Virus record (IMG/VR): IMGVR_UViG_3300020213_000056
Coordinates: 1-39,611 of that record
DNA: 39,611 bases
Direction: 5' to 3' (one strand)
Origin: a virus
Part shown: positions 27 to 39,540 of the stretch, in pieces
How the letters are laid out: every line of letters begins with the position of its first letter
Numbering within the stretch: the stretch's first letter is position 1
The notes under the pieces: model-generated
What the model was told of the DNA's origin: nothing
Seen by the model: only the letters and a program-made list of their open reading frames with translations
The model's database searches: none
Position numbers and translations under genes: made by a program

Positions 27-208
27 GTCGGTTGGGTTCTGCATTCCCATACATTAGCGGCCCACAATGGTGAATCAATAGGTGAGGGATGTTTTCCTGA
101 GTTTTTTTCGACACCAGGAACACCCTAACAAAACCCGATTGGGGCGCAGAACACTACAAAACACGGTGTTTCGATCATTGTTGCCGTTCTCGTTTCTGGA
201 TCAGCCAC

Positions 209-440
209 GGTATATATACCCTAACATATACCTAACGTGTTTCTAGTGATATGCCTACCTCAATACTGCAAAAAGGCGATCAAGTACTACATTTCAGGCG
301 TACAGCCTCCCGGTAGGGTTTTGTTAGGCTAACAAACACCTAACAAAGAATCCCACTATTATATATCCGCCGCGCGCGCCCATATGGCCCCAATATTGGG
401 ATCATATAGTTTTTTATGCTTTTCTCCCATTATATATGGG
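209..440. other. AT-rich palindromic segment, candidate DNA unwinding region
   Basis: This stretch is strikingly AT-rich compared with the GC-rich coding regions. It contains a perfect 12-bp palindrome GGTATATATACC at 209-220, a perfect 12-bp palindrome CCCAATATTGGG at 389-400, and an imperfect CCCA/TGGG hairpin around TTATATA at 427-440. It directly abuts the iteron array at 441-816. An easily melted element next to an initiator-binding array is the standard layout of bacterial and plasmid origins, so a duplex-unwinding role is inferred. The palindromes could instead bind a regulator. No coding sequence is credible here. Confidence 0.45.
316..347. repeat. Inverted copy of the origin spacer repeat
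   Basis: This segment holds TTGTTAGG followed by CTAACAAACACCTAACAAAG. The second half is the reverse complement of the TTAGGTGTTTGTTAG motif that recurs on the plus strand between iteron groups at 472-840. The motif is therefore present in both orientations on the two sides of the AT-rich segment, giving the origin region a partly symmetric layout. Shorter CCTAAC/CTAACA fragments also occur at about 125-135 and 219-235. Confidence 0.55.
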
Positions 441-816
441 GTGCACAACATGTGCATAACTGGTGCACAACTCTGTTAGGTGTTTGTTAGGCGTTTGTTA
501 GTGTGTATAATATGGGGATAGAATGGGGATAACCCACGGGGATATCTTGGGGATAACTTGGGGATATCTTGGGGACAACTTCCGGTGTATAACATGGGGA
601 TATCTTGGGGACAACCTTCGGGGATATCTTGGGGATAACATGGGGATAACCCCCGGTGCACAACATGTGCATAACTGGTGCATAACTCTGTTAGGTGTTT
701 GTTAGTGTGCATAATGGGGGGATAACTCTGTTGGTGTTTGTTAGTGTGCATAATGTGTGCATAACTCTGTTAGGTGTTTGTTAGTGTGCACAACCTGGGG
801 ATAATGTGTGCATAAC
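441..816. repeat. Helically phased DnaA-box-like iteron array, probable replication origin
   Basis: About 26 copies of a nine-base unit of the form GTGCATAAC or GGGGATAAC (variants GTGCACAAC, GGGGATATC, GGGGACAAC, GTGTATAAC) begin at 441, 452, 463, 503, 514, 525, 538, 549, 560, 571, 585, 596, 607, 620, 631, 642, 656, 667, 678, 707, 718, 746, 757, 786, 797 and 808. Most neighbouring units are exactly 11 bp apart, about one helical turn. Read on the minus strand with the preceding base, six are perfect TTATNCACA DnaA boxes (451, 666, 706, 745, 756, 807) and the GGGGATAA type differs by one base. Groups are separated by a spacer repeat with the core TTAGGTGTTTGTTAG (about 472-504, 686-706, 726-745, 765-785, degenerate 816-835). 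An origin with initiator iterons is the best reading; the window also encodes a DnaA domain IV protein. Confidence 0.75.
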
Positions 817-882
817 TTTGTTAGGTGGCTACTAGGGTGCTTTTGAATCAGGCCCTTCACTGCCACCTCACTACCGAGAAGA

Positions 883-955
883 CAAAAAACGCCCCGACCT
901 CAAAAAACGCCCCGACCTCAAAAAACGCCCCGACCTCAAAAAAACGCCCCGACCT
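883..955. repeat. 18-bp direct tandem repeat, four copies
   Basis: Four back-to-back copies of an 18-19 bp unit, CAAAAAACGCCCCGACCT, occupy 883-900, 901-918, 919-936 and 937-955, followed by a partial copy. The fourth copy can pair with the following sequence (CCCCGA at 947-952 with TCGGGG at 964-969), making a hairpin followed by TCTTT. The repeats lie between the iteron array and the first plus-strand gene, so they may be a second protein-binding array or part of a leader or terminator. Translating them gives a monotonous APTSKN repeat, and I do not regard them as coding. There are no spacers, so this is not a CRISPR array. Confidence 0.85.
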
Positions 956-1059
956 CAAAAAACTCGGGGTCTTTGGGGTGGCGAAAACCCCGCAAAACCC
1001 CCGAATGTTTGGGGCTTGGACTTGCATCCGCTGGAAAAACCGACGTAAGATGCTCAACG

Positions 1060-2073
1060 ATGCTCGAAGATGTCGAAAACGCCGCGGGAAATCGTCTGTT
1101 CGAAGACGAGGAGGGCACGTTCGGATTCACCGGATTGCTGTCCTCACGACCCACGAGGCATCAGGATTCCCGCCGCGCCAAGAAACCGGGAAGCCTCATG
1201 CGTGCAATGTGGCGGGACGCAGAGCATGAGTCGATTGCAAGGAACGATCCGGCCGTGGTCGCACAAGCCACGGTCCAGACGACCCATCGAATAGTGCGGG
1301 AAATGTGCCGATTAGTCGGGTGGATCAGCACAAACGACGGGCTGAGAAGCATCGACCTGACGACGGCCCGCAACATCGCTGCGCCGTCGATGGACATGAT
1401 GAATACAGACGCGGGAACTGCCTCGATCGTTGTGAAACTGTCGAAGGCGGGTCATCGACTGTCTCCTTTGCCTCGGCGAAACCAGTCGATCGAATCACTC
1501 CGCGAATACATGGACCTTTTCGCGTCCGTGGCCTCGTCCCTGGGCGTGATAGAGTCGGTTGATGGCCAGATCGCACTCTCCAGAATCGTGATGATTCCAC
1601 CTCCCTGGGCGTGCTGGCCCACACCCGGCCAGATCGCCGCGTACGAAGCGGCATTGATCGACGGGGTGGTGGATTCGATAGTGGCCAGAGGCGCGATCCG
1701 CACCGAGAAATGGCTGCGGATGCACACGCTGTTCCAGCATCACGAAATTCGGTCGATGGTGGCTATGGCACGCATCGAAAGCGTGGAGAAGACCTCCTCA
1801 AGCATCAAGGAGGATCAGGCCGTGATCACGCTTCGGTTGGAGGATCTGGTGATGCGGTGCCGCAAGAGCGGGGATCTCCGCGCAGAATTGCAGGCCGTCA
1901 AGGCCCTGGCCATCGTCCGCGGCGTGACGCGAGTCACCCCCGAAGATGAAGAGGCGGATTTCCTCCGCTTGGCTCGGAGAGTTGCTAACATGGCCGCTCT
2001 ACCAGTCGATGCTATGGAGCACCACCCGCAAGTGCTGCCTCCAGCCGCCCAACTCCCGGAGTTACCGTCTTGA
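1060..2073 (+). CDS. Hypothetical protein, possible small terminase-like
   Basis: The product is about 337 residues with no family I recognise with confidence. The start is uncertain. ATG at 1060 is chosen because everything upstream lies in repeats; a later ATG at 1198 has GGGAAG just before it and would give about 291 residues. The C-terminal third (LRLEDLVMRCRKSGDLRAEL and following) is amphipathic, with the kind of helical pattern seen in the oligomerisation part of some small terminase subunits, and no other small terminase is apparent. The evidence is weak because no helix-turn-helix is evident and the large terminase is 5 kb away. The gene overlaps the next one by four bases (TTGA), implying translational coupling. 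Its place beside the origin also allows a replication role. Confidence 0.7.
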   Translation: MLEDVENAAGNRLFEDEEGTFGFTGLLSSRPTRHQDSRRAKKPGSLMRAMWRDAEHESIARNDPAVVAQATVQTTHRIVREMCRLVGWISTNDGLRSIDLTTARNIAAPSMDMMNTDAGTASIVVKLSKAGHRLSPLPRRNQSIESLREYMDLFASVASSLGVIESVDGQIALSRIVMIPPPWACWPTPGQIAAYEAALIDGVVDSIVARGAIRTEKWLRMHTLFQHHEIRSMVAMARIESVEKTSSSIKEDQAVITLRLEDLVMRCRKSGDLRAELQAVKALAIVRGVTRVTPEDEEADFLRLARRVANMAALPVDAMEHHPQVLPPAAQLPELPS

Positions 2074-29154: not shown

Positions 29155-29592
29155 TCACCGACGACCCGCCTTTCGGGACGAGGCGGGCTTCGCCTTGGCC
29201 TTTGCCTTGGCCGGAGCCTTGGCCTTGCCCTTGCCCGGAGTCTCAACCGTCGCTGAGGGGAGGGCAAACACCGGTCGCAGCATGATGCCTACCCGACCAT
29301 CATTCAGGAGACGTCGGGAGAAGCGGAATCCCTCGGGAGGGGGCGTCGGGCAGCGGTGGACCGCGGAGCCCAGGCGGTTGAACAACCTGCGGGGGGTATC
29401 CCGTGGGCCGGGGGTCTGCACGATCACCTCACCGACCACGAGCCCCGCCAGTGCTTCGTGCAGATGGACGTACTCGGGCCGGGTCTTGCGTCGATTGGCG
29501 AATACGAGCGAGGACTCTTGGGCAATGACTGGCTTCCCCGGAGCCGACGAAGTCGGAGGGGTGGGGGAACAGCGAACAGGCTTCTTGGTCAT
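29155..29592 (-). CDS. Hypothetical protein with basic AK-rich tail
   Basis: The 145-residue product starts at ATG 29592, overlapping the polymerase stop by four bases (ATGA). Residues about 20-110 form a mixed domain (VYFANRRKTRP-like beta strand, then GLVVGEVIVQTPGPRDTPRR). The last 30 are a low-complexity basic segment made of AKAKAKAK and PASSRKAGRR, like a histone-H1-like tail, which should bind DNA nonspecifically. Being coupled to the polymerase gene suggests a replication or DNA-condensing accessory. No family is recognised. Confidence 0.7.
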   Translation of the reverse strand: MTKKPVRCSPTPPTSSAPGKPVIAQESSLVFANRRKTRPEYVHLHEALAGLVVGEVIVQTPGPRDTPRRLFNRLGSAVHRCPTPPPEGFRFSRRLLNDGRVGIMLRPVFALPSATVETPGKGKAKAPAKAKAKAKPASSRKAGRR

Positions 29593-32500
29593 GTGGCTTT
29601 CTGTGGGGGATCCCAGGGCTTGAGGCGGCCGTCGGAGTCGTACGCGGGCTCCGCAGCCTTGTTCCATCGGAGCATAGCAGCGGGTTGGACGCGCTGCAAC
29701 ACGTTCGGGGTGATGTTCTCCATCTCGTCCACCATCATCTTTGACACCATAAACGCATCGTCGTGCAGGTGTTCGAGCGGAACCTCGAACACAATTTCGT
29801 CATGCACGAACATCACCGGGAACGTGCGGTCGTACAGAGGGCTGTTCTGCGACGGGTCGTGGGATGCCCGGACCACGGCGATGACGGCCAGCAGTGCCCC
29901 CTCCGCCGCGTAGGATTGGAGACCTGCCCCGTTCGCGACTTCGGTGTAGGTGCAGCCGTAGCGGTGCATCCCCATCTTCGTCCGGTAGAAGTGCATCCCC
30001 ATCGACACTTCCTTGGGTAGTCCCGTCTTCTCGTCGATGATCTCGACCCGCCGCGGGGCGTTCCAAGGGTCGCCGGTCTGTGTGTTGATCCAGTCGAAAT
30101 ACCGAGAGGCTTCGGGGATGGTCTGCTTCCAGATTTCCCGAAGTTCCGTAGCAGTGTCGATGTCGACGGCAAGCCCGAACTGACCCTTCGCGTACTTGCA
30201 GAAATTCTTAGGTCCGAGGCCCCCGGGGTACCCCAGGCCGGTGGGCTTGGCCATCGTGCGGTAGTGCCTCCACCACCCCTTCAACTCCGGGTCATTCCCG
30301 ATCCCCACGAAGGCTTCGTTGATTTCATCGGTGGTCGGGGCTGCCATGCCGGAAAAGCAGGACCGAAAGTCGGGATCGGTGGCGTATGCGATCTGGGCAC
30401 CGAGATATCCGTGGGTGTCCACGCCGGTGTTGATGCGATCTGCCAGAGCGGAAACCCCGAACAGGTCGATGCACTTCTGCGCCCAGGTCGTGAGTTCCAG
30501 TTGCGAGTAGTCGCACGAGACGAAGGCGTATCCGGGGCGAGGCACGAAACACGCCCGAGCCTGGGGGTCGACGTTCTGACAGTTGAACGAGGGGTACAGT
30601 TTACCTGCTCGGCAAGAGGTGCGACCGCTGGCCTTGAGCGAGTCGTACCACGTGTAAACGTGCGTGGCGGGGGATCCGTCGATGGGATTCCCGTCGTCAT
30701 CGAGATTGCACATGCGCGGCAGTTCGGTGGTCTGCATCTTGATCCGCTGCTCTCGGTAGCGGAACTGTTCGATCGCCTCGTCGAGGTGGTAGTGGTCGTC
30801 CAGCCACTCTCCGGAGAAACTGATCTGGCCATCGGGGAACTTGTCGGAGGGGTCTGTGCGGCGAACATCGACCTCGTCGAGGTGCAGGTCCTTCAACTCA
30901 AGGATGAACTGCCTCATCCTCTGGTGCGACAGCCTCTCGGGCTGACCGCTGGTCATCTTGGGCGTGCCGTCAGGATGTTTGGCCCCGTTCTTGTATTCCC
31001 GCGGGGGCTCGGCCGGGATCAGAATCCCCTCGGCAATCAGGCGGCCGAAGTTCGCGGGGTCGAGTTCCTTCCCGAGAATGTCCCGCATCTGGTGATACAT
31101 CGCAGGATCCACCGCGATGCCCCGCGACGACATGATGAACAATGCAAACTCTGCGGTGACGCGGAAGGATTCGACCTCGTACGGATCGACGCCGCGAGCC
31201 TCCATCAGGCCCAGGCGACGAGACTCCTGCTGCTTCCACACCTGAAGGGTGTCCAAGGAATCCTGCAAGGCGTAGTCGGCGGCATCAGGGGGGTAGTCGT
31301 CGAACTTCACGCCGGCGAGTTCGGAGAAGTTGGTGCGCCACGACTCAGGGCTGTCCTTCTCCGCGGATCGATCGACTCCGAGATACTTCTTCGCGAGATC
31401 CTTCAACGAGTAGTTGATCTTCATGGTCGCGCCGCCCAAGTCGGCCATCTCCAACTGCCCGTGGGTGGCGAGGTTCATGAGCTTCTCCCTCACGCCGGTG
31501 TCATGCACACGGCCGCCCAGGAGAGCCTCCCATACCGCCGGAATCAGGTCGGGCCTCCGGCGACACATCACGGCCAGGTCGAAGGCGACGAAGTGCCCCA
31601 CGATCCGCTGGTCAGCCTCCAAGAGCCAGTCCTCCATATCCCGGAGACAATCGCCGTCTGCGGTCGAAACGCCAATCGTCTCGGAGTTCGGCAGTGCCAC
31701 TGTGAGGCAGATCGCCACGGGGGCGAGGTTGCCGGCGCCGATTCGCTCCGTCTCGTAATCAAACGAGACAGGGACAGGGGGCAGTGGTGCGGCCTCTCTT
31801 GTGGCCGGAGCGAGATTGTTCGTGGTCATGGTTGGGATCTTATCCGAGATCGTACTCGGTGGCAAGGAAGGCTTTGACGAACTCCGCCGCGACTTGCGGC
31901 ACGATGACTCTAACTGCATGATCGGGAACGTTTCGGCCTTGTCGCGTAGTGCCGCCTCGATGCGTTTCACGGCGATCTCGAAGAATCGCGGCACCTCCTC
32001 GACACCGATGAATCGTCGGCCAGTACGCACGCACGCAACGCCAGTCGTGCCGGAACCCATGAACGGGTCGAGGATGCAGTCGGCAGTGTGTCTCCGGATT
32101 AGATACTCCATCAACGCCACTGGCTTTTGTGTCGGATGAACGTATGTATTGCCGGACGGTCTCGGAATGCTCACGATGTCCCGATCCCTTCCGCCGACCA
32201 GTTCCGAGCGGGCGATCCTCCCAAAGACGATCGCCTCCCACTGCTTGCCGTAACTGGCTTTCAAGTCGCCCGCCCCGCAGTTACCCTTGTCCCAGCAGAT
32301 GATGTTGACCACGTCGAAACTTGCCCGAATGATCGGCAGCAGCATGTCGAGCCGCTCGGGTGCGCCGAAGCAATAGATGATCCCGGCATCGCTGAGCAGG
32401 GGGCGCATGGCTGGCACGGCCTCGATGAGCAGTGATTGTGTCTTCGCAAAGGTATCGTTGAGCAACGGCTGTGTTAGAAGTTCCGCGGTAAGTCTGGTGC

Positions 32501-32666
32501 TGTGCCTGTAAACCCCAAGACGGTAATCCGTTCTATATCTGTTTCCATACGGCGGGTCTGTCATTACCGCGTCCACGCTGCCCGCAGCGAGCGTCGGGAG
32601 CACTGCAAGACAGTCGCCGCAGTACAACGTCACGGTGCCGCAGGGCGAGACGTAGGAGGGAGTCAT
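29589..32666 (-). CDS. DNA methyltransferase joined in frame to family A DNA polymerase
   Basis: The 1025-residue open frame carries two enzymes. Residues about 10-245 are an N4-cytosine/N6-adenine methyltransferase of the beta order: DPPY at 37-40 and DPFMGSGTTG at 200-209. Residues 280-1025 are a family A polymerase: 3'-5' exonuclease with FDYE (Asp303, Glu305), HFVAFD and DAADYALQDS; polymerase motif A CDYSQLEL (Asp719), motif B KPTGLGYPGG (Lys807, Leu811 at the Phe762 position of E. coli Pol I), and motif C HDE at 955-957. The junction (250-279) is low-complexity Ser/Arg/Pro. In another frame (31840-31930) the same DNA encodes a plausible C-terminus ending EFVKAFLATEYDLG and a stop ten bases before the polymerase ATG (31829). 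So this may be two separate genes joined by a frameshift, or a true fusion. Confidence 0.82.
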   Translation of the reverse strand: MTPSYVSPCGTVTLYCGDCLAVLPTLAAGSVDAVMTDPPYGNRYRTDYRLGVYRHSTRLTAELLTQPLLNDTFAKTQSLLIEAVPAMRPLLSDAGIIYCFGAPERLDMLLPIIRASFDVVNIICWDKGNCGAGDLKASYGKQWEAIVFGRIARSELVGGRDRDIVSIPRPSGNTYVHPTQKPVALMEYLIRRHTADCILDPFMGSGTTGVACVRTGRRFIGVEEVPRFFEIAVKRIEAALRDKAETFPIMQLESSCRKSRRSSSKPSLPPSTISDKIPTMTTNNLAPATREAAPLPPVPVSFDYETERIGAGNLAPVAICLTVALPNSETIGVSTADGDCLRDMEDWLLEADQRIVGHFVAFDLAVMCRRRPDLIPAVWEALLGGRVHDTGVREKLMNLATHGQLEMADLGGATMKINYSLKDLAKKYLGVDRSAEKDSPESWRTNFSELAGVKFDDYPPDAADYALQDSLDTLQVWKQQESRRLGLMEARGVDPYEVESFRVTAEFALFIMSSRGIAVDPAMYHQMRDILGKELDPANFGRLIAEGILIPAEPPREYKNGAKHPDGTPKMTSGQPERLSHQRMRQFILELKDLHLDEVDVRRTDPSDKFPDGQISFSGEWLDDHYHLDEAIEQFRYREQRIKMQTTELPRMCNLDDDGNPIDGSPATHVYTWYDSLKASGRTSCRAGKLYPSFNCQNVDPQARACFVPRPGYAFVSCDYSQLELTTWAQKCIDLFGVSALADRINTGVDTHGYLGAQIAYATDPDFRSCFSGMAAPTTDEINEAFVGIGNDPELKGWWRHYRTMAKPTGLGYPGGLGPKNFCKYAKGQFGLAVDIDTATELREIWKQTIPEASRYFDWINTQTGDPWNAPRRVEIIDEKTGLPKEVSMGMHFYRTKMGMHRYGCTYTEVANGAGLQSYAAEGALLAVIAVVRASHDPSQNSPLYDRTFPVMFVHDEIVFEVPLEHLHDDAFMVSKMMVDEMENITPNVLQRVQPAAMLRWNKAAEPAYDSDGRLKPWDPPQKAT

Positions 32667-33013
32667 GGTGTGTCTTTGCGGATCTTCTCAGCTGCTGCCC
32701 GCACTGATGCGAGCAGCCTGGGTTCCGTCATGCCGGACCTCTCGTTGATCTCGTCCAAAGCAAGTCTCCACTCTGATCTATCTGTGGGGATGTACTCGGG
32801 ATGGAACTCGGCAACGACTGCGCGGTAAGCGTCAATTCGGCGAGCCTCGTCGCTTTCGGCGTGGTCGATTGCAGTGGAAACTCGCACGCGGCCATACTTG
32901 CTCTGTCGTTGCATTCCCTCCCCTAGGTAGTCGCGATTGTGCGGCGTGCCGCTGAGCCAGGGGTTGCGCATCATCGACTCGTGCGCTGCGTCCAGAATGT
33001 CGGCGATGGTCAC
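32663..33013 (-). CDS. Hypothetical protein with shared C-terminal motif
   Basis: The 116-residue product overlaps the polymerase start by ATGA and the upstream gene by ATGA. It opens with a helical ADILDAAHESMMRNPWLSG segment reminiscent of the DUF6197 start but lacks the GWTQ and CA-rich core, so it may be a diverged relative. It ends in GMTEPRLLASVRAAAEKIRK, a motif shared with four upstream neighbours. Residues DAYRAVVAEFHPEYIPTD form another piece similar to the 33486 product (YRAVVQVLDP). Function unknown. Confidence 0.75.
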   Translation of the reverse strand: MTIADILDAAHESMMRNPWLSGTPHNRDYLGEGMQRQSKYGRVRVSTAIDHAESDEARRIDAYRAVVAEFHPEYIPTDRSEWRLALDEINERSGMTEPRLLASVRAAAEKIRKDTP

Positions 33014-33489
33014 TGATTCTCCCTGCGGAGACTTTCAGCCGCTGCCCACACTGATGCGACGGTCGCCACGCGATCACCCTCTGGCCGCGAAAGCCAGCGG
33101 GTGTGCTGGTCGTAGGTGTTTGCGGGGCAGCGTCGCCCCATCCTGCGAGCGATCTCGGGGTATGTGCAATCCGTCAGTGCGCGGAGCACGCCGACCGTTG
33201 TCACCCGTGCGTGCACCACTTTTTTATGCTGGTTCGTGGAGGCCATCATGGCCAGCGTGATGCCCTCGATTTCACTCGCAGCGGCGAACACGAGGCTCGC
33301 CGGCAGTCGTTGAGGCGTCGGGGGGTGAGCGGCTTCGGCGACCAGGCGTTCCACTCGTTGCGTCCACGTCTCAGAGGACCCGGTGACGAGCGGTGCGACC
33401 GGGCGTGAACGCCACGCATCTTCCAACGTCACACGTCCGAAGTCGTCGCGGGTGCCCCAGAACTCCTTCCGGGCTGTGGCATTAGTCAT
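33010..33489 (-). CDS. Stand-alone DnaA domain IV-like DNA-binding protein, candidate origin-binding initiator
   Basis: The 159-residue product starts at ATG 33489 (ATGA overlap with the gene upstream). Residues about 62-131 align without gaps to the C-terminal domain IV of bacterial DnaA: VFAAASEIEGITLAMMAS matches the first helix, HKKVVHARVTTVGVLRALT matches the basic-loop helix (E. coli SRSVARPRQMAMALAKELT), and YPEIARRMGRR matches SLPEIGDAFGGR. Domain IV is the part that reads the DnaA box. The E. coli recognition residues DHTT are replaced by CPAN, so specificity may have shifted toward the noncanonical boxes at 441-816. No AAA+ domain is present, so it either recruits the host DnaA/helicase or works as an origin-binding factor. 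It ends in the shared ASVWAAAESLRR motif. Confidence 0.8.
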   Translation of the reverse strand: MTNATARKEFWGTRDDFGRVTLEDAWRSRPVAPLVTGSSETWTQRVERLVAEAAHPPTPQRLPASLVFAAASEIEGITLAMMASTNQHKKVVHARVTTVGVLRALTDCTYPEIARRMGRRCPANTYDQHTRWLSRPEGDRVATVASVWAAAESLRRENQ

Positions 33490-33896
33490 AGGTCGTCTCC
33501 CCTTCGGATCTTCGCTGCTGCTTCCCGCATGGCGGCAGACATGCAAGGTCCAGACATGTAGACCGAGTCGTTCAGCAACTTCAACTCTAAGAACCAGTCC
33601 CTGTCTGTCCCGTACGAGCACGGGTCCAACACCTGCACGACTGCTCGGTACGCGCCGTCAAGGACCAACTCTTCATCCGTGTGCCCTATACCGTAGACCG
33701 CCCTGTATGCCCGCTCGACCCTTAGATCGCGGCCGGTCCCGGACGCTTGGATCGACCCCGTGGCGCACCAGCACGAAGCAGCGGGGTCTTCCGGCCACAC
33801 TGCAACCCCTTCTTGGTCACGAGCGGAAGCGTGCTGTATCCATCCCGATTCGATCAGGTCTGCGGCGCTGTCGAGAATGTACGGAATGTCTCTCAC
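33486..33896 (-). CDS. DUF6197-like protein
   Basis: The 136-residue product has the pattern of the DUF6197 family of small phage and bacterial proteins: a helical ILDSAADLIESGWIQHASAR, then a CWCATGSIQ segment and a later YRAVYGIG/YRAVVQVLD helix. Function of this family is unknown. It overlaps both neighbours by ATGA and ends with AAMREAAAKIRR, the shared C-terminal motif. It is upstream of the DnaA-IV gene. A second DUF6197-like gene lies at 34156-34563, so the cassette contains paralogues. Confidence 0.78.
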   Translation of the reverse strand: MRDIPYILDSAADLIESGWIQHASARDQEGVAVWPEDPAASCWCATGSIQASGTGRDLRVERAYRAVYGIGHTDEELVLDGAYRAVVQVLDPCSYGTDRDWFLELKLLNDSVYMSGPCMSAAMREAAAKIRRGDDL

Positions 33897-34159
33897 GGGT
33901 CACACTTCTCCCCCGCCGCCAATGCGGCGGCGCGTGTGGCTGCGTCAATCGATCGCGGAGCAGCGGCGAGCCGGCGATTGTGCTCCTCCAATTGCATTAT
34001 CTCCACCTGCTCCAGCTGTCGGATCCTCGTCTCAACGCCGCTCAGCTCGTCTCGCAGCGCCTCGGTGAATTGGAGCAGGTCCCGAGAGTCGACCGGGCCG
34101 CCGCGGTTGGCGATGCGGTCGATCGCTTCCTGAAATGGTGTCGTCATAGTCATAGTCAT
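33893..34159 (-). CDS. Small coiled-coil protein with shared C-terminal motif
   Basis: The 88-residue product is almost entirely helical, with a likely coiled coil through RDLLQFTEALRDELSGVETR and IRQLEQVEIMQLEEHNRRLA. It starts with MTMTMT, produced by repeated ATGACT/ATGAC DNA, and overlaps both neighbours by ATGA. Its C terminus (PRSIDAATRAAALAAGEK) matches the shared motif of the adjacent genes. It may mediate oligomerisation in a complex with them. No family recognised. Confidence 0.75.
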   Translation of the reverse strand: MTMTMTTPFQEAIDRIANRGGPVDSRDLLQFTEALRDELSGVETRIRQLEQVEIMQLEEHNRRLAAAPRSIDAATRAAALAAGEKCDP

Positions 34160-34563
34160 GTGGTTTTCTCTTCTTCCTTTGCGATGGATTCCAATGCGGC
34201 GGCACGCATGGAGGCGGCCACCCGTGGCCCGGTCATTTCCCTGTGGTCGTTCCGCTCAACAAGAGAACCTCTGCTTCTAGATAGAGCCCCGCCCTTGTCG
34301 AGGTCTCGAACGAGGGCCATCCGGGCTGCGCAAAGGATCGCTGATCGGTACTCAATGTCGGTGAATCGATTCGCGGCACGGGAGAGAGCACCCATGGCGC
34401 ACCAAGACACTGCATCGCACGAGCAAGGACTGACCTCTTTATCTTGCCTACTAGGTCCGTCACGCGCCGAAGCATATTGTGTCCATCCTCGATCGATCAG
34501 GTCTGCGGCGTCGTTCAGAATGCGCGCCAGGTCTTCGGCGACGGCCACCTGTGGTGTGGTCAT
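34156..34563 (-). CDS. DUF6197-like protein
   Basis: The 135-residue product starts at ATG 34563, preceded by AGGAGG nine bases upstream, one of the clearest Shine-Dalgarno sequences here; longer readings are not supported. It carries the DUF6197 pattern LARILNDAADLIDRGWTQYA followed by CDAVSWCAMGAL. It ends in EMTGPRVAASMRAAALES, the shared C-terminal motif. Being the first gene of the ATGA-coupled run with a strong binding site, it probably loads ribosomes for the downstream chain toward the polymerase. Family function unknown. Confidence 0.78.
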   Translation of the reverse strand: MTTPQVAVAEDLARILNDAADLIDRGWTQYASARDGPSRQDKEVSPCSCDAVSWCAMGALSRAANRFTDIEYRSAILCAARMALVRDLDKGGALSRSRGSLVERNDHREMTGPRVAASMRAAALESIAKEEEKTT

Positions 34564-34571
34564 GTACCCTC

Positions 34572-35144
34572 CTACTGAATCAGGGTGACAGAGAAAGATG
34601 CGTACCACACGTGCTTCCCTCCGATGGCCGCTTGGACGCGGACATACAAGCGGCCGCCTGTCGGCGTCTGAAGCACGCCGAAGGGGGGGATTAGCTGCAC
34701 GGTCGCGGATCCCTCGCCGGTCGACGAGAATCCCGGGGACTGGTTCTCCGCGATGTTCTTCGACGTTTGCCCCCACGCGGCGAGGACGTGCCCCGCGTCG
34801 CCGCCGTCGACCGTCCCGCTGCCGTCGAGATCGGCCTCCCCGGCGCCAGGCCCCCACGCGGCGAGGACGAGCCCCGCGTCGTCGCCGTCGACCACGCCAT
34901 CGGCGTTCAGGTCTGCAGCCGGATCCTCGACCAAAGCGAACAAATACTCGCCCCACTTTTGGAACAGGAGCGGCACGCCCCCGGAGCTCTTCGCGTGCAC
35001 CACGATCATCCCGCCGACGGTCTGGAAATCGGCCGCCCCGACGGCCACCTTGAGATCGATGATCTCGCCTTCAGGGCCTGTCGCGCCCGCGATGGAACCG
35101 AGGATCTTGTTGCCGACACGGACGACTGAGGTTGAGTATGCCAT
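34572..35144 (-). CDS. Dockerin-repeat protein
   Basis: The 190-residue product contains two type I dockerin repeats at about 76-126. The calcium loops are DLNADGVVDGDD (78-89) and DLDGSGTVDGGD (105-116), each followed by a helix ending in LAAWG. Positions 1, 3, 5, 9 and 12 of both loops are Asp, Asn or Ser, as EF-hand-like dockerin loops require. The repeats are inserted between two halves of a beta-rich domain (1-75 and 135-190, the second ending VWYASFSVTLIQ). There is no signal peptide. This repeat style is common in Planctomycetes proteins and supports such a host. In bacteria dockerins bind cohesins or act as modular joints; here a virion decoration or host-mimic role is possible. AAGGA precedes the ATG. 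Confidence 0.88.
   Translation of the reverse strand: MAYSTSVVRVGNKILGSIAGATGPEGEIIDLKVAVGAADFQTVGGMIVVHAKSSGGVPLLFQKWGEYLFALVEDPAADLNADGVVDGDDAGLVLAAWGPGAGEADLDGSGTVDGGDAGHVLAAWGQTSKNIAENQSPGFSSTGEGSATVQLIPPFGVLQTPTGGRLYVRVQAAIGGKHVWYASFSVTLIQ
34771..34892. repeat. Near-identical DNA copies inside the dockerin gene
   Basis: Two 41-base segments starting at 34771 and 34852, exactly 81 bases (27 codons) apart, differ at only two positions. They encode the two calcium-loop/helix units of the dockerin. Such high identity at the nucleotide level, rather than only at the protein level, points to recent duplication or conversion within the gene. Confidence 0.85.
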
Positions 35145-35187
35145 GTGTTCCTTAGCGATGGAGGGGGGTAAAGCCTGTCAAACGAGC

Positions 35188-35207
35188 CCACCGACTTTCG
35201 TCGATGG
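35188..35207 (-). terminator. Short hairpin with GAAA loop after the Cys-rich gene
   Basis: CCACCGAC (35188-35195) and GTCGATGG (35200-35207) form an eight-pair stem with a four-base loop, which reads GAAA on the minus strand. It lies between the stop of the secreted protein (35227) and the dockerin start (35144). On the minus strand it is followed by GCTCGTTTG, with only a short T-run, so it is a weak terminator candidate or RNA-processing structure separating the two genes. Confidence 0.45.
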
Positions 35208-35226
35208 ACCCGGGGGAAGGAGGACA

Positions 35227-35667
35227 TCAACAACAAGTCTTCAGGCACTCCCACACACCGTTGTGGGACCTCCGAAGGTGTGAACTCCGAAAACAGGCGC
35301 ACACGGTGAGCGGGGCGGTCGGAGCCAGCCCGCAGCACTCGCGGATCCCCGACTCTCGGCACATCCTGCGCCGCTCCGTAAGCGTGGTCGCCACCGGCGG
35401 GAACTGGTCTCCGATGTCGTCCGCGATTTCGGCGAAGACCCTCGCACCGTCCATCGACCAGTCACCTGCGACCGTGTCGGTCGTACCGTCTTCGTGAACC
35501 GCGGTGAACACCCATCCGTCCTCACCGATGTCTGTCAATGAGAGGGGGGGAAACTGGTCCCCGATGTCGGTACGGGGCGGTGGACCCCCTCTGGCGACAG
35601 GCGCCACCGAAAGAACCGAAAGAACCGCAAGAACCGCAAGAACAGCAAGAAGAACCTTGTTACGCAT
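35227..35667 (-). CDS. Secreted cysteine-rich protein
   Basis: The 146-residue product starts with a typical Sec signal peptide, KVLLAVLAVLAVLSVLSVAP, with likely cleavage near VARG-G. The repeated LAV/LSV core is encoded by tandem 9-base DNA repeats. The mature part contains DIGDQFPP twice (about 34 and 80), and the last 50 residues hold eight cysteines (MCRES, ECCG, VCACF, ECLKTCC), suggesting disulfide bonds outside the cytoplasm. It is surrounded by replication genes but is clearly exported, so it resembles a moron-type accessory gene, possibly affecting the host envelope or superinfection. No family is recognised. Start ATG at 35667 with AAGGCAAGGA just upstream. Confidence 0.75.
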   Translation of the reverse strand: MRNKVLLAVLAVLAVLSVLSVAPVARGGPPPRTDIGDQFPPLSLTDIGEDGWVFTAVHEDGTTDTVAGDWSMDGARVFAEIADDIGDQFPPVATTLTERRRMCRESGIRECCGLAPTAPLTVCACFRSSHLRRSHNGVWECLKTCC

Positions 35668-35710
35668 TCCTTGCCTTTCTGTTGGGGGCTTTCGCCCAGG
35701 TGTGGGGACC

Positions 35711-36289
35711 TTACGCCTTCTCTGCATCAAGGCAGAGTTGGTCCAGGCGGCCGCCCGGAAAGAGACGGTTGATCAGCGACTCCCCCTCCGCCCCCAACTT
35801 CTGGAGTTCGTTCCGCACGGTGCGGGGATCGACGACACCCTTCCAGTTGACCTTTGTGTACACACCCCCTTTGCGCGTCGCTTGATGGCGCGCTTCGACC
35901 TGCACCAGCACGCCCGCCAGAGGCTGAGAGTCGCCAACGACCTGAGCGGCCACTTCCTCATCCACTTCCGACACTTCGCAATTCGCCAACGCGGCGATGG
36001 CCGTCTTCACGTTCCCCAAGAAGCTGGGGTGCTTCTTCATAATGATCTGCGCGCACTCCTCCCCCGGGGAGTGTCCATAAGCGGAGTGTTCCACCCCGGG
36101 GGTCCCCTTCGTGAACATCGTGGGGGCGAGGTCGAGGACGGCCGTCAACTCAATGATGAAAAACGGCTCCTCGCTGAAATTCTTCCCTTCGCCGCACCTG
36201 CGAACAAGGAACACGGTCTGGCAAGGCCTGACGTAGTTCCCATCCATCGATGCCCTTGCCTTGCCGAGACCTGTAAAAATGCCAGCCAT
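35711..36289 (-). CDS. Replication-module protein, candidate ssDNA-binding
   Basis: The 192-residue product begins at ATG 36289, preceded by AAAGGA at good spacing. It has a beta-rich N-terminal half (SMDGNYVRPCQTVFLVRR, then EEPFFIIELTAVLDL) and a central HSPGEECAQIIMKKHPSFLG helix. A second beta segment includes GVLVQVEARHQATRKGGVYT and KVNWKGVV. This is the style of small phage OB-fold-like proteins encoded near the polymerase and thought to bind ssDNA. The acidic tail typical of SSBs is weak (LDQLCLDAEKA), so the call is tentative. It follows the helicase and a small membrane protein. Confidence 0.55.
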   Translation of the reverse strand: MAGIFTGLGKARASMDGNYVRPCQTVFLVRRCGEGKNFSEEPFFIIELTAVLDLAPTMFTKGTPGVEHSAYGHSPGEECAQIIMKKHPSFLGNVKTAIAALANCEVSEVDEEVAAQVVGDSQPLAGVLVQVEARHQATRKGGVYTKVNWKGVVDPRTVRNELQKLGAEGESLINRLFPGGRLDQLCLDAEKA

Positions 36290-36320
36290 TGTTGTTTTTC
36301 CTTTCAGGAATATGACCAAA

Positions 36321-36503
36321 CTAAACGAATCGATTAGTGGAAAGGTACTCGAACAGTCTCGCATCGTCAAGAGGCTTCGACTGCGAATCTAAAATATATC
36401 TGGTGGTGAATACGTACGCGAGTACGGACAAAACCAAGACAAAAAACACAAAATTGACGCGGGCCGAGATGTATTTCCTTTTTGTGCGTCTACGTATCGT
36501 CAA
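36321..36503 (-). CDS. Small single-TM protein
   Basis: A 60-residue product starts at TTG 36503, with AAGGGGG seven bases upstream. It has an arginine/lysine-rich N terminus, one transmembrane segment of about 22 residues (VNFVFFVLVLSVLAYVFTTRYI) and a short polar tail. Positive residues before the TM segment predict the N terminus inside. The DNA here (about 36300-36510) is markedly AT-rich compared with its neighbours, suggesting recent acquisition or little constraint. Function unknown; it could be a superinfection-exclusion or membrane-anchoring protein. The TTG start lowers confidence. Confidence 0.45.
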   Translation of the reverse strand: MTIRRRTKRKYISARVNFVFFVLVLSVLAYVFTTRYILDSQSKPLDDARLFEYLSTNRFV

Positions 36504-36518
36504 AAATCAACCCCCTTC

Positions 36519-38630
36519 TCATGCCCTTTGCAGGTCGCCAAACTTCTCCCGCAGGGCCTGTTGCTGTGCCTGGGACAGCATTACCGGCTCGAACCCTCGT
36601 GAGCGGAGAGTCTCCGGGGTGAACACCGCCGGAAGAGGATCCCACGACGCGATGATGATCTTCTGTCGGTCGGTGGTGGAGTGAATGTACAGTGCGTCGT
36701 TGATGGACGCAGCCATCAGGAGCTGGTCGAACAGCAGGGTCAGATTGGTGCAGATCACCAACTCGTCCGCTGTCTGTCCCGTGCGGTGTGTGCGCCCGAT
36801 GGTTTGTTCCGCCGTACGGGCGGGGCGGGGCCACTGGAGAAAGAAGTTGTGTCGGAAGTGCTGAAGGTTCTTGCCGGTGCCGTGTGCGTCGATCGAGGCC
36901 ACCACGATCCTGTCCTTGTTGTCCGGGTCGGCGATCTCTTCATTCGAGCCCGCGGGCGCGAACAGGACGGGGATCCCTGCCGCCTCCAACCGCTCCCGAG
37001 CCCATCGAAGCATCGCGTTGTGGTAGCACCAGACGATGCCTCCTTGCCCCTTCTTCGCGAACATATCGGCCCAACGAACCATGTGCCGAATCTTGTAGTC
37101 GTCCACGCGGACCTCTACTTCGTCGCGAGAAATCATCCCTTCGAATTTCTGCGCTCTAGCCTCGGTCCAGAGCTCGAAGAGTTCCTCCCCCACCTGGGAC
37201 GCACCCGTTCTGTACATCGCCGCACCGACGAGCAGAGGGGTGTCGATGCCGGGGCGTGAGTACGTCTGCAACCAGGCCCGCAGGCATTGCGTGTACGACT
37301 GCTCGGCCGCGTGCTGGTTCTTCGACCTTTCGAGGACGGTGGAAGCCTCCGTCTCGGAAATGCGACGACGCTGTGCCAATTGTTTCAACGTAGGCCAGAC
37401 CAGCGAGTTGTAGAACCCCGAGGATAGCTCCAGCAACCACTTGTACTTGTGGATGGCGTAGTCGATCTCGTCACCGTTCGGAGTGACCCACTCCTGCTCC
37501 ACCGCCCGGATGAGTTCGGACAGTTCCGCCCCCGGTTGTTCGGCGGGCTCGTTGTGAATCACCAGCGATGTGCCGATCTGCGCGTCGCCGGAGATGACCA
37601 CCCCGGGCGACCGTGCCATGCGGGTCCTGTACGCGGCCCGGAACCCTGGAAGCACGTCAAGGAAAGAGTGCTCCGCGGGGAAGTGCTCCCGAGCCCACTG
37701 GCTGAGTCTCAGGATCGGGCCTCCGTCCCCTGTAGGTGGTGCCCCTGCGTCGAGGACATCACCCCACCGTCTCGCCTGGGCGGCAGGGATCGGGAGCGGT
37801 GCCAGCACGCCCAAGGCGCGAGCGATCAGGTGGTGGTAGTCCATCACGGTCTTTGACGTGACGGTGCCGCTCATCGCGACGAACTGCGCATCCGGGTTCT
37901 GGTCCCGGAGATAGTGCCGCATGACCCTCTTCGTACGGGCCGCGTCGAAGGTGGACAGGTGGTGAGCTTCATCAGCGATCACCAGACCGGGCGCCAGTGT
38001 CGCGAGAAGTTCATCCGTGTCGCGGGTCGACAGCAGGGAGTAGGGGACGACGTACAGCCCCGGCCGGCGAGCCTTGGCCATCGCGCGACGTGCAGAGGAC
38101 GCACGCCCCGCCATGACGTGCACGGGGACGCCGAAGGGGATTCGGCTCCTCGCCCACTTTACGTCCTGGATAAACTGCCCGACCACGCCCGGGGGGAGGA
38201 GGAGTACGATCTGCTGAATGCCTCCAGCGAAGGCCCGGTTGGCAATCATCTGGCCCAGGAGGGTTTTTCCCCAACCCACGCCAATGGGGAAAAACCCCCC
38301 TTGGCACCGCTCGTAGGATCGGATGCCCGCCAGTTGCGGAGGCAAAAGCCGAAAGCCGCTGTCAAAGGCGGAAGACAGCAACCTACTCCGGTTCTCCGCC
38401 TCGATTTCGGCCGGCGTGAGGATCTCGGGAATCGGGATCGCCAGGACTCGTTCGATCTCGTGGTTCAGATTCGCGACGTGATGCGGCTGACTCGCCTTGG
38501 CCGCCAGCTTCTCCGAGAGTGTCTGCGGAGGGCGTAGAGGTGCGATGGGGGTATCGCCGATCCCCTCTCGCACCGTCATACGGTCGAGTGTCGTCGCGCG
38601 CTGACGCAATTGGTCCAGGATACGGCTCAC
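36519..38630 (-). CDS. SNF2-like superfamily 2 helicase
   Basis: The 703-residue protein is a replication or recombination helicase/translocase. Walker A PIGVGWGKT is at 115-123, the DEAH box IADEAHH at about 218-224, motif III VAMSGTVTSKT follows, and motif VI QTIGRTHRTGQTADE lies near residue 640, the SNF2/Rad54-type pattern. The N-terminal 95 residues are a charged helical region that may be a coupling domain. A GTG start is used, with AAGGGAG about 15 bases upstream. A terminator at 38683-38740 insulates it from the upstream gene. Phage SNF2-like helicases are usually encoded in replication modules. Confidence 0.85.
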   Translation of the reverse strand: MSRILDQLRQRATTLDRMTVREGIGDTPIAPLRPPQTLSEKLAAKASQPHHVANLNHEIERVLAIPIPEILTPAEIEAENRSRLLSSAFDSGFRLLPPQLAGIRSYERCQGGFFPIGVGWGKTLLGQMIANRAFAGGIQQIVLLLPPGVVGQFIQDVKWARSRIPFGVPVHVMAGRASSARRAMAKARRPGLYVVPYSLLSTRDTDELLATLAPGLVIADEAHHLSTFDAARTKRVMRHYLRDQNPDAQFVAMSGTVTSKTVMDYHHLIARALGVLAPLPIPAAQARRWGDVLDAGAPPTGDGGPILRLSQWAREHFPAEHSFLDVLPGFRAAYRTRMARSPGVVISGDAQIGTSLVIHNEPAEQPGAELSELIRAVEQEWVTPNGDEIDYAIHKYKWLLELSSGFYNSLVWPTLKQLAQRRRISETEASTVLERSKNQHAAEQSYTQCLRAWLQTYSRPGIDTPLLVGAAMYRTGASQVGEELFELWTEARAQKFEGMISRDEVEVRVDDYKIRHMVRWADMFAKKGQGGIVWCYHNAMLRWARERLEAAGIPVLFAPAGSNEEIADPDNKDRIVVASIDAHGTGKNLQHFRHNFFLQWPRPARTAEQTIGRTHRTGQTADELVICTNLTLLFDQLLMAASINDALYIHSTTDRQKIIIASWDPLPAVFTPETLRSRGFEPVMLSQAQQQALREKFGDLQRA

Positions 38631-38682
38631 GATCGCATGTCTCCCTTGCTATTGATCTCAATGCCCATCAGACACACCCCTC

Positions 38683-38740
38683 GAAAAAATCCCAGCGGAC
38701 GCACTGAGGGGGTCGAGCCCCCCTTTCGTGCGCCGCTGGG
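38683..38740 (-). terminator. Rho-independent terminator before the helicase
   Basis: On the minus strand, CCCAGCGG (38740-38733) pairs with CCGCTGGG (38698-38691), and an inner GGGGG/CCCCC stem sits inside, with a further CGCAC/GTGCG pairing. The stem is directly followed by ATTTTTT on the minus strand (38690-38683), the classical U-tract. It lies between the stop of the gene at 38755 and the helicase start at 38630, so transcription from the first minus-strand gene should end here and the helicase operon probably has its own promoter in the remaining 50 bp. Confidence 0.82.
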
Positions 38741-38754
38741 CGCCCGGTCGGCCG

Positions 38755-39540
38755 TTACACCACAGGCATGATGACCGTACCTGCGTGCGGCAAAAAGCTG
38801 TCGAAAAGGGCCTTCGCGTCAGACTCCATGCGGCCGACGCCTTCACAGATGATCCACTCCGTCGAAAGTTCCCGGGTGGCGAAGCCTGATCCCCACTGCC
38901 GGATCATCCGCATCCTCGCGAAGTCGTCGATCTCGAAGGGCGACGCGACGCCCTTCTCCTCCATGATCGCCTGATACGCCTCTTGAAGGATGGTGGACAG
39001 GAGCTTGGTATTTCGATTCGCGGCCTTGGTAGGCACACAATTCACCATCAGGAGAAAGCCTGTCTTAGGACGCCCCGCCTGGCGGGTGCCCTTCGGGGTG
39101 GCCTGTGCGATCTCTTCGTCACCCTCGGGGGTCTCGACCGTAGTCGTGCGGGGGGTCGCGGGCACCTGTCGTCCCACCCGTGGGTGAGGCGTCTCCGGCG
39201 GAGTCGTCGACACCTTCACCTGGACGACAGGCTCATCGCCCTTGTAGTCCATCAGCGGCCAGATCCCCTCCTCTTCCACCCCGTCCACCTCGCTGAACCA
39301 CTGCACCGTCCCATCCCCCAAGTACTCGATGCCGAAGGGGAATTCCCCGTCATTCGCCCGCTTGTACTTCATCTCACAAATCCTACAAATAGTCCCGGTC
39401 GACACCAGACCGTGGCCGTGGCAGGCACGACAGGTCGGGTCTGCCCAAGGCGGACGCGTCCAACCCTTCTCCGCCGCGATTTCGTCCGACACATGGAATC
39501 GGGTCGCAGACGGTGCACTGACAGGCATCTCCGGGGGCAT
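38755..39540 (-). CDS. Zinc-binding protein, possibly 5' truncated by the window edge
   Basis: The product reads at least 261 residues from ATG 39540. The frame stays open to the window edge (39611) with a proline-rich stretch, so the true start may lie outside. Near the N terminus CRACHGHG and CRIC, separated by 12 residues, form a DnaJ-like zinc finger of CxxC type. A middle segment (about 110-160) is proline/threonine-rich and disordered. The C-terminal 100 residues are a distinct helical domain (NTKLLSTILQEAYQAIMEEK, then DDFARMRMIRQWGSGF) of no recognised family. It is the first gene of the leftward module and ends before a strong terminator. Confidence 0.72.
   Translation of the reverse strand: MPPEMPVSAPSATRFHVSDEIAAEKGWTRPPWADPTCRACHGHGLVSTGTICRICEMKYKRANDGEFPFGIEYLGDGTVQWFSEVDGVEEEGIWPLMDYKGDEPVVQVKVSTTPPETPHPRVGRQVPATPRTTTVETPEGDEEIAQATPKGTRQAGRPKTGFLLMVNCVPTKAANRNTKLLSTILQEAYQAIMEEKGVASPFEIDDFARMRMIRQWGSGFATRELSTEWIICEGVGRMESDAKALFDSFLPHAGTVIMPVV

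Follow-up and report, generated by a model that had tools for sequence, protein, structure and literature searches.

The closest described systems are two bacterial origins and one phage origin. At E. coli oriC, strong and degenerate 9-mers follow one another with 2-bp gaps, one orientation is kept within each of two short opposed arms, and an easily melted element adjoins the sites; the low-affinity sites, lying 2 bp apart (an 11-bp step), are filled cooperatively, starting at the high-affinity boxes (PMC6070618). Cori of Caulobacter crescentus contains G-boxes and W-boxes, and DnaA binding to the six-base W-boxes, TCCCCA, is very weak but detectable (PMC4285127). The phage P1 origin oriR combines two DnaA boxes, 9 bp apart, with a second repeat class, the 19-bp RepA iterons, and has a RepA gene.

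We analyzed the whole of IMG/VR virus record IMGVR_UViG_3300020213_000056 (39,611 bases; here called the window), a linear contig of an uncultured phage, without end repeats. An array of DnaA-box-like units lies at one end of the contig, and the sequence to the left of that end falls outside the record. Because 26 boxes, mostly 11 bp apart, adjoin the DNA that should open most easily in the whole contig, the array is most likely the site at which the phage initiates its replication by means of host DnaA. The features at this end of the contig are the following.

124-345, minus strand: inverted motif (CCTAACA or CTAAC) at 125, 221, 232, 329, and 340, with pairs 11 bp apart
211-241 and 337-367, no strand: further easily melted stretches, second and third in the window, left of the array
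About 321-335, within the inverted-motif region: 15-bp palindrome TTGTTAGGCTAACAA
406-436, no strand: candidate DNA unwinding element, directly left of the first box
440-816, plus strand: the array, 26 DnaA-box-like units in runs of two to four with an 11-bp step
474-825, plus strand: TGTTAG or TGTTGG units, with GTTRG starts at 475, 486, 497; 690, 701; 730, 740; 769, 780; and 820
883-963, plus strand: 18-bp tandem repeat CAAAAAACGCCCCGACCT, 4.4 copies, separating the array from the first rightward gene
973-2073, plus strand: first rightward open reading frame (ORF), 366 aa from a TTG at 973, with an ATG at 1060 and without a significant family match

We defined a unit as a match to TGKGSATAAC with two or fewer mismatches. 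By this definition, exactly 26 units are present at 440-816, all on the same strand. They resemble TGTGCATAAC or TGGGGATAAC and read TGTGNATAA or TGGGGATAA on the plus strand, which corresponds to TTATNCACA or TTATCCCCA on the minus strand. Of the 25 steps from one unit to the next, 17 are 11 bp, two are 13 bp, and two are 14 bp; the others are gaps of 40, 29, 28, and 29 bp. The first-pass annotation of this DNA had described 26 recurring units, most of them 11 bp apart, and our counts agree with it, as do the 9-mer starts that it gave (538, 549, 560, 571, and others). It had also counted six perfect DnaA boxes; the number is seven. These exact TTATNCACA boxes are the units at 451, 502, 666, 706, 745, 756, and 807, and no other exact copy occurs on either strand of the 39.6-kb contig.

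The density of boxes is well above chance, as expected of an oriC-type origin. At up to one mismatch, GKGSATAAC has 24 matches, compared to 0.37 expected from dinucleotide shuffles, and DnaA boxes with no more than one mismatch number 15, compared to 0.6 in shuffles. Self-identity of the array at a lag of 11 is 0.53, versus 0.27 in dinucleotide shuffles (z = 11.4). Tandem duplication of 36- to 40-bp blocks contributes part of this regularity; the 11-bp step is also kept between boxes that differ in sequence.

Like E. coli oriC, the array has strong and degenerate 9-mers, 2-bp gaps, a constant orientation, and an adjoining easily melted element, and its spacing (17 of 25 steps at 11 bp) on one strand fits cooperative DnaA assembly. 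It differs from oriC in carrying all of its units in a single orientation rather than in two short opposed arms, in having weak sites of the TTATCCCCA type, and in the interleaving of a second motif. As in Cori, weak TCCCCA boxes stand beside stronger ones: a GGGGA core of the W-box type is present in 13 of the 26 units, and 10 of these contain TGGGGA, the complement of TCCCCA. Unlike those of Cori, the strong sites are the E. coli-type TTATNCACA and not TGATCCACA, and sites are far more numerous. The array resembles P1 oriR as a candidate phage origin in which DnaA boxes are combined with a second repeat class; in contrast to oriR, we found no Rep family beside it, and the ORFs at 973-2073 and 38755-39540, both of unassigned family, match no Rep family. 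The 11-bp step also sets the array apart from plasmid iterons, which are units of about 17 to 22 bp placed about two helical turns apart.

In a nearest-neighbour scan of the 39.6-kb contig, the stretch at 406-436 is the least stable 30-mer, with a stability of -33.0 compared to a mean of -46.2 (sd 3.1). It is the AT-rich stretch that the earlier annotation had noted beside the array, and its position is that expected of an adjacent unwinding element at an oriC-type origin. Across approximately 100 arrays, the easily melted flank showed no bias to a fixed side relative to box direction, which speaks against the origin reading. Judged from its sequence, the region at 211-826 is probably an oriC-like phage replication origin, with host DnaA oligomerizing on the boxes.

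The first reading of this DNA missed a second motif, TGTTAGG, which has nine copies at 1-860, distributed over both strands, and is absent from the remainder of the contig. Within the array, TGTTAG(G) units occupy the 28- to 40-bp gaps between runs of boxes and lie 11 bp apart, except for one pair at 10 bp. Their placement is near-fixed at 13-11-5 bp, with 13 bp separating them from the preceding box and 5 bp from the following one. Left of the array, the motif is mostly inverted. Four other viral contigs (L146, L147, L149, and L156) carry TGTTAGG arrays with 11-bp steps and without DnaA boxes; the flank CCTAACAAAACCC is common to L147 and the window, and we found no proteins shared between the window and any of the four. 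Right of the array, each CAAAAAACGCCCCGACCT copy resembles one arm of a terminator stem and its T run on the minus strand.

The contig has the gene set of a tailed phage: a terminase (a call based on terminase-annotated tblastn matches), major capsid protein, head protease, portal, tail genes, helicase, and a methyltransferase-PolA fusion. The tail genes show only a weak resemblance to gene transfer agent genes. Two features in the right part of the contig may bear on replication.

29589-39540, minus strand: leftward replication module, including the helicase (36519-38630), the methyltransferase-PolA fusion (29589-32666), and the ORF at 38755-39540, which is the module gene nearest the contig end
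33010-33489, minus strand: DnaA-domain-IV-like protein of 159 aa, with a helix-turn-helix DNA-binding likeness and without an AAA+ domain

If the contig ends join, this module is divergent from the rightward genes, and the array occupies a non-coding position upstream of the leftward replication operon. The 1025-aa product of the fusion gene consists of an N6/N4 DNA methyltransferase (aa ~10-245) followed by an exonuclease-polymerase part with a 3'-5' exonuclease and a family A DNA polymerase (aa ~295-1004); the joining could be a true fusion or an assembly artefact. Small neighbouring ORFs on the minus strand at 32663-34956, one of which has a weak DUF6197 match, resemble each other near their C termini by eye, and this likeness suggests a duplicated family around the DnaA-like gene.

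We searched 2.9 million viral contigs and 50,697 phage records and found no close relative of the phage, and thus none in which conservation of the array could be compared. Searches with the DnaA-like protein and with the polymerase gave no useful relatives, and tail, helicase, and terminase queries gave distant matches or none. MW202816, a distant relative of the replication module, is without an array.

Similar arrays are present in other viruses. Three exact boxes at 11 bp occur at no fewer than 120 IMG/VR loci, and the loci listed fall into 66 unrelated clusters, with 59 of the 66 intergenic. We also scanned for box triplets in a viral sample of 66 clusters, allowing free gaps of 0 to 20 bp so that 11 bp was not favoured; steps of 11 bp (62), 12 bp (48), and 21 bp (27) were found, and steps of 13 to 16 bp were nearly absent. 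TGTTAGG does not behave as a general viral motif phased at 11 bp, since no single step was preferred in its variable-gap sample. Long runs of perfect boxes at exactly 11 bp are present in L014, L071, L073, and L134, with six boxes in a row in L014 and L071, and L134 has runs in which TTATNCACA and TTATCCCCA occur together at 11 bp. These arrays are like that of the window in their tandem TTATNCACA at 11 bp and mostly intergenic position; they differ in having no sequence kinship to this phage and mostly fewer units, and the W-type examples that we checked are without an interleaved TGTTAGG array. In bacterial genomes, phased W-type boxes were found at three loci, in Zhouia and Streptosporangium, which indicates no host; one consists of phased TTATCCCCA-type boxes in a Streptosporangium genome (L130, positions 360-391).

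Replication genes were not enriched beside the arrays in other contigs, where DNA polymerases are commoner far from arrays than near them; this is a further point against the origin reading. The commonest genes near arrays are terminases (11 vs 7 for phrog_2), and portal genes also often flank them. The nearby terminases, together with the position of our array at a contig end and the operator-like look of TGTTAGG and the palindrome, are what a packaging (pac/cos) site or an operator array for a phage protein would lead one to expect, with the likeness to DnaA boxes being coincidental. We consider this explanation very unlikely. Exact TTATNCACA recurs at 11 to 12 bp in 66 or more clusters that are unrelated to each other. 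A single conserved host protein accounts for this recurrence, whereas terminases without kinship do not, and a packaging site has no need of the skew-minimum position described below.

The same recurrence bears on how new the array is. It had been called unusual and novel, which is overstated: arrays at 11 to 12 bp are present in many unrelated viral contigs, and the spacing and the W-box are both published. The proposal of an origin itself is upheld by the box consensus, the melting-prone flank, the non-coding site, and the skew position of similar arrays. In the literature that we searched, phased arrays of DnaA boxes are not described as phage origins, which does not prove that no such description exists.

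We examined the position of arrays relative to GC skew in the array-set contigs of 24 kb or longer, with stretches joined, by measuring the distance from each array to the extremes of the detrended cumulative GC skew. Counting one contig per sequence cluster left 26 unrelated contigs. In 10 of these, the array lies within 5% of genome length from the cumulative GC-skew minimum (several arrays are only 60 to 400 bp away), and in one it lies near the maximum. Uniform placement predicts 1.3 of 26 near the minimum (p = 2.5e-7). AT-rich 60-mers from the same contigs, used as a control, predict 16.4%, or 4.3 contigs (p = 0.006). The arrays of the W-type contigs G079 to G081 are not near skew minima. 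In the window, with its array at the contig end, the GC-skew minimum is at approximately 3.1 kb, 2.5 kb from the array, and is not significant. Because wrap-around distances presuppose genomes that are circular or circularly permuted, and because skew depends on gene orientation as well, we regard the skew position as support rather than proof.

An array of this kind might bind host DnaA without being an origin, as a decoy or titration site similar to datA or through DnaA control of divergent promoters that couples phage genes to host replication. Twenty-six sites is a large number for an origin, the array overlaps with promoter-like hexamers (484-511 on the plus strand and 456-429 on the minus strand; four compared to 1.8 expected), and similar arrays often have terminase and portal genes as neighbours. 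However, the promoter excess is small, and the adjacent stability minimum and the skew-minimum position of similar arrays suit an origin better, so we judge a non-origin role unlikely.

The protein encoded at 33010-33489 had been put forward as a binder of the array. It matches PF08299 with E=1e-5 and 25.9 to 27.2 bits, under the curated cut-off of 31.5, and has a weak phmmer match to domain IV of M. tuberculosis DnaA (3pvp). Its profile-profile similarity extends over the core of domain IV: hhalign against six phage DnaA_C proteins gives a probability of 95% over 63 columns, which stop short of the signature. When the protein is aligned to 3pvp with HMMER, it has CPANT in place of the base-reading stretch DHTTV, whereas the D, H, and T of DHTTV are invariant across the six phage DnaA_C proteins. 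Proteins of the DnaA_C type occur in Bradyrhizobium, Rhizobium, Microcystis, and other phages.

We found no association between the domain and the arrays in either direction: none of 81 array-bearing contigs has a DnaA C-terminal domain, and box arrays are absent from all seven phages that we retrieved for their DnaA_C-containing proteins. The suggested binder is therefore without a counterpart in other array-bearing contigs and is probably not a general partner of such arrays; it is a possible accessory factor. The 81 contigs without the domain also argue against a misfiled host oriC and for the use of host DnaA. It is doubtful that the sites are iterons for this phage protein, replacing or modifying host DnaA at the origin. 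Its domain IV similarity and its place in the replication module would fit such a role, as would the stand-alone DnaA_C proteins of other phages, which adjoin replisome-organiser-type genes. This is countered by the lack of association, by the loss of the base-reading residues and the score below the Pfam cut-off, and by a single-sequence AlphaFold prediction that gave no usable model (mean pLDDT 41).

The interleaved motif allows a further reading, which we hold to be improbable: an origin for two proteins, in which host DnaA occupies the boxes, strong and weak alike, and the TGTTAGG sites are taken by a second protein, possibly the stand-alone DnaA-domain-IV-like phage protein with its altered base-reading residues. 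If this were true, the shared 11-bp step could allow one mixed filament to be captured and controlled by the phage.

For an oriC-like origin used by host DnaA, we infer the following course from the arrangement of sites. Host DnaA would first occupy the seven strong TTATNCACA boxes, and DnaA-DnaA contacts would carry its spread to the degenerate boxes nearby (TTATCCCCA, GTTGTGCACC, and the like), which share one orientation and are spaced by a single subunit step (9 + 2 bp). The oligomer formed in this way would open the adjacent weak DNA at 406-436, where replication might then pass to the phage helicase and polymerase. A second protein, from the phage or the host, probably binds the TGTTAGG sites, which keep the same register, and may help or gate assembly.

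The 2-bp gap in E. coli oriC and the Caulobacter TCCCCA box provide published precedent for the 11-bp steps and the TTATCCCCA boxes, respectively, so neither the array step nor the W-type box is in itself unprecedented. What is new here is an unusually long, one-directional oriC-like array in which strong and W-type boxes are mixed and a second motif is held in register. As a natural long version of the low-affinity arrays of E. coli oriC, it could be used to test DnaA oligomer growth on double-stranded DNA. It is rare for the origin of an uncultured phage to be known. With a simple sequence rule, namely tandem TTATNCACA at 11 to 12 bp and sometimes TTATCCCCA as well, arrays can be located in many viral contigs that are unrelated, mostly in intergenic positions; these arrays tend toward the GC-skew minimum, and the rule would mark likely host-DnaA-dependent origins from sequence alone.
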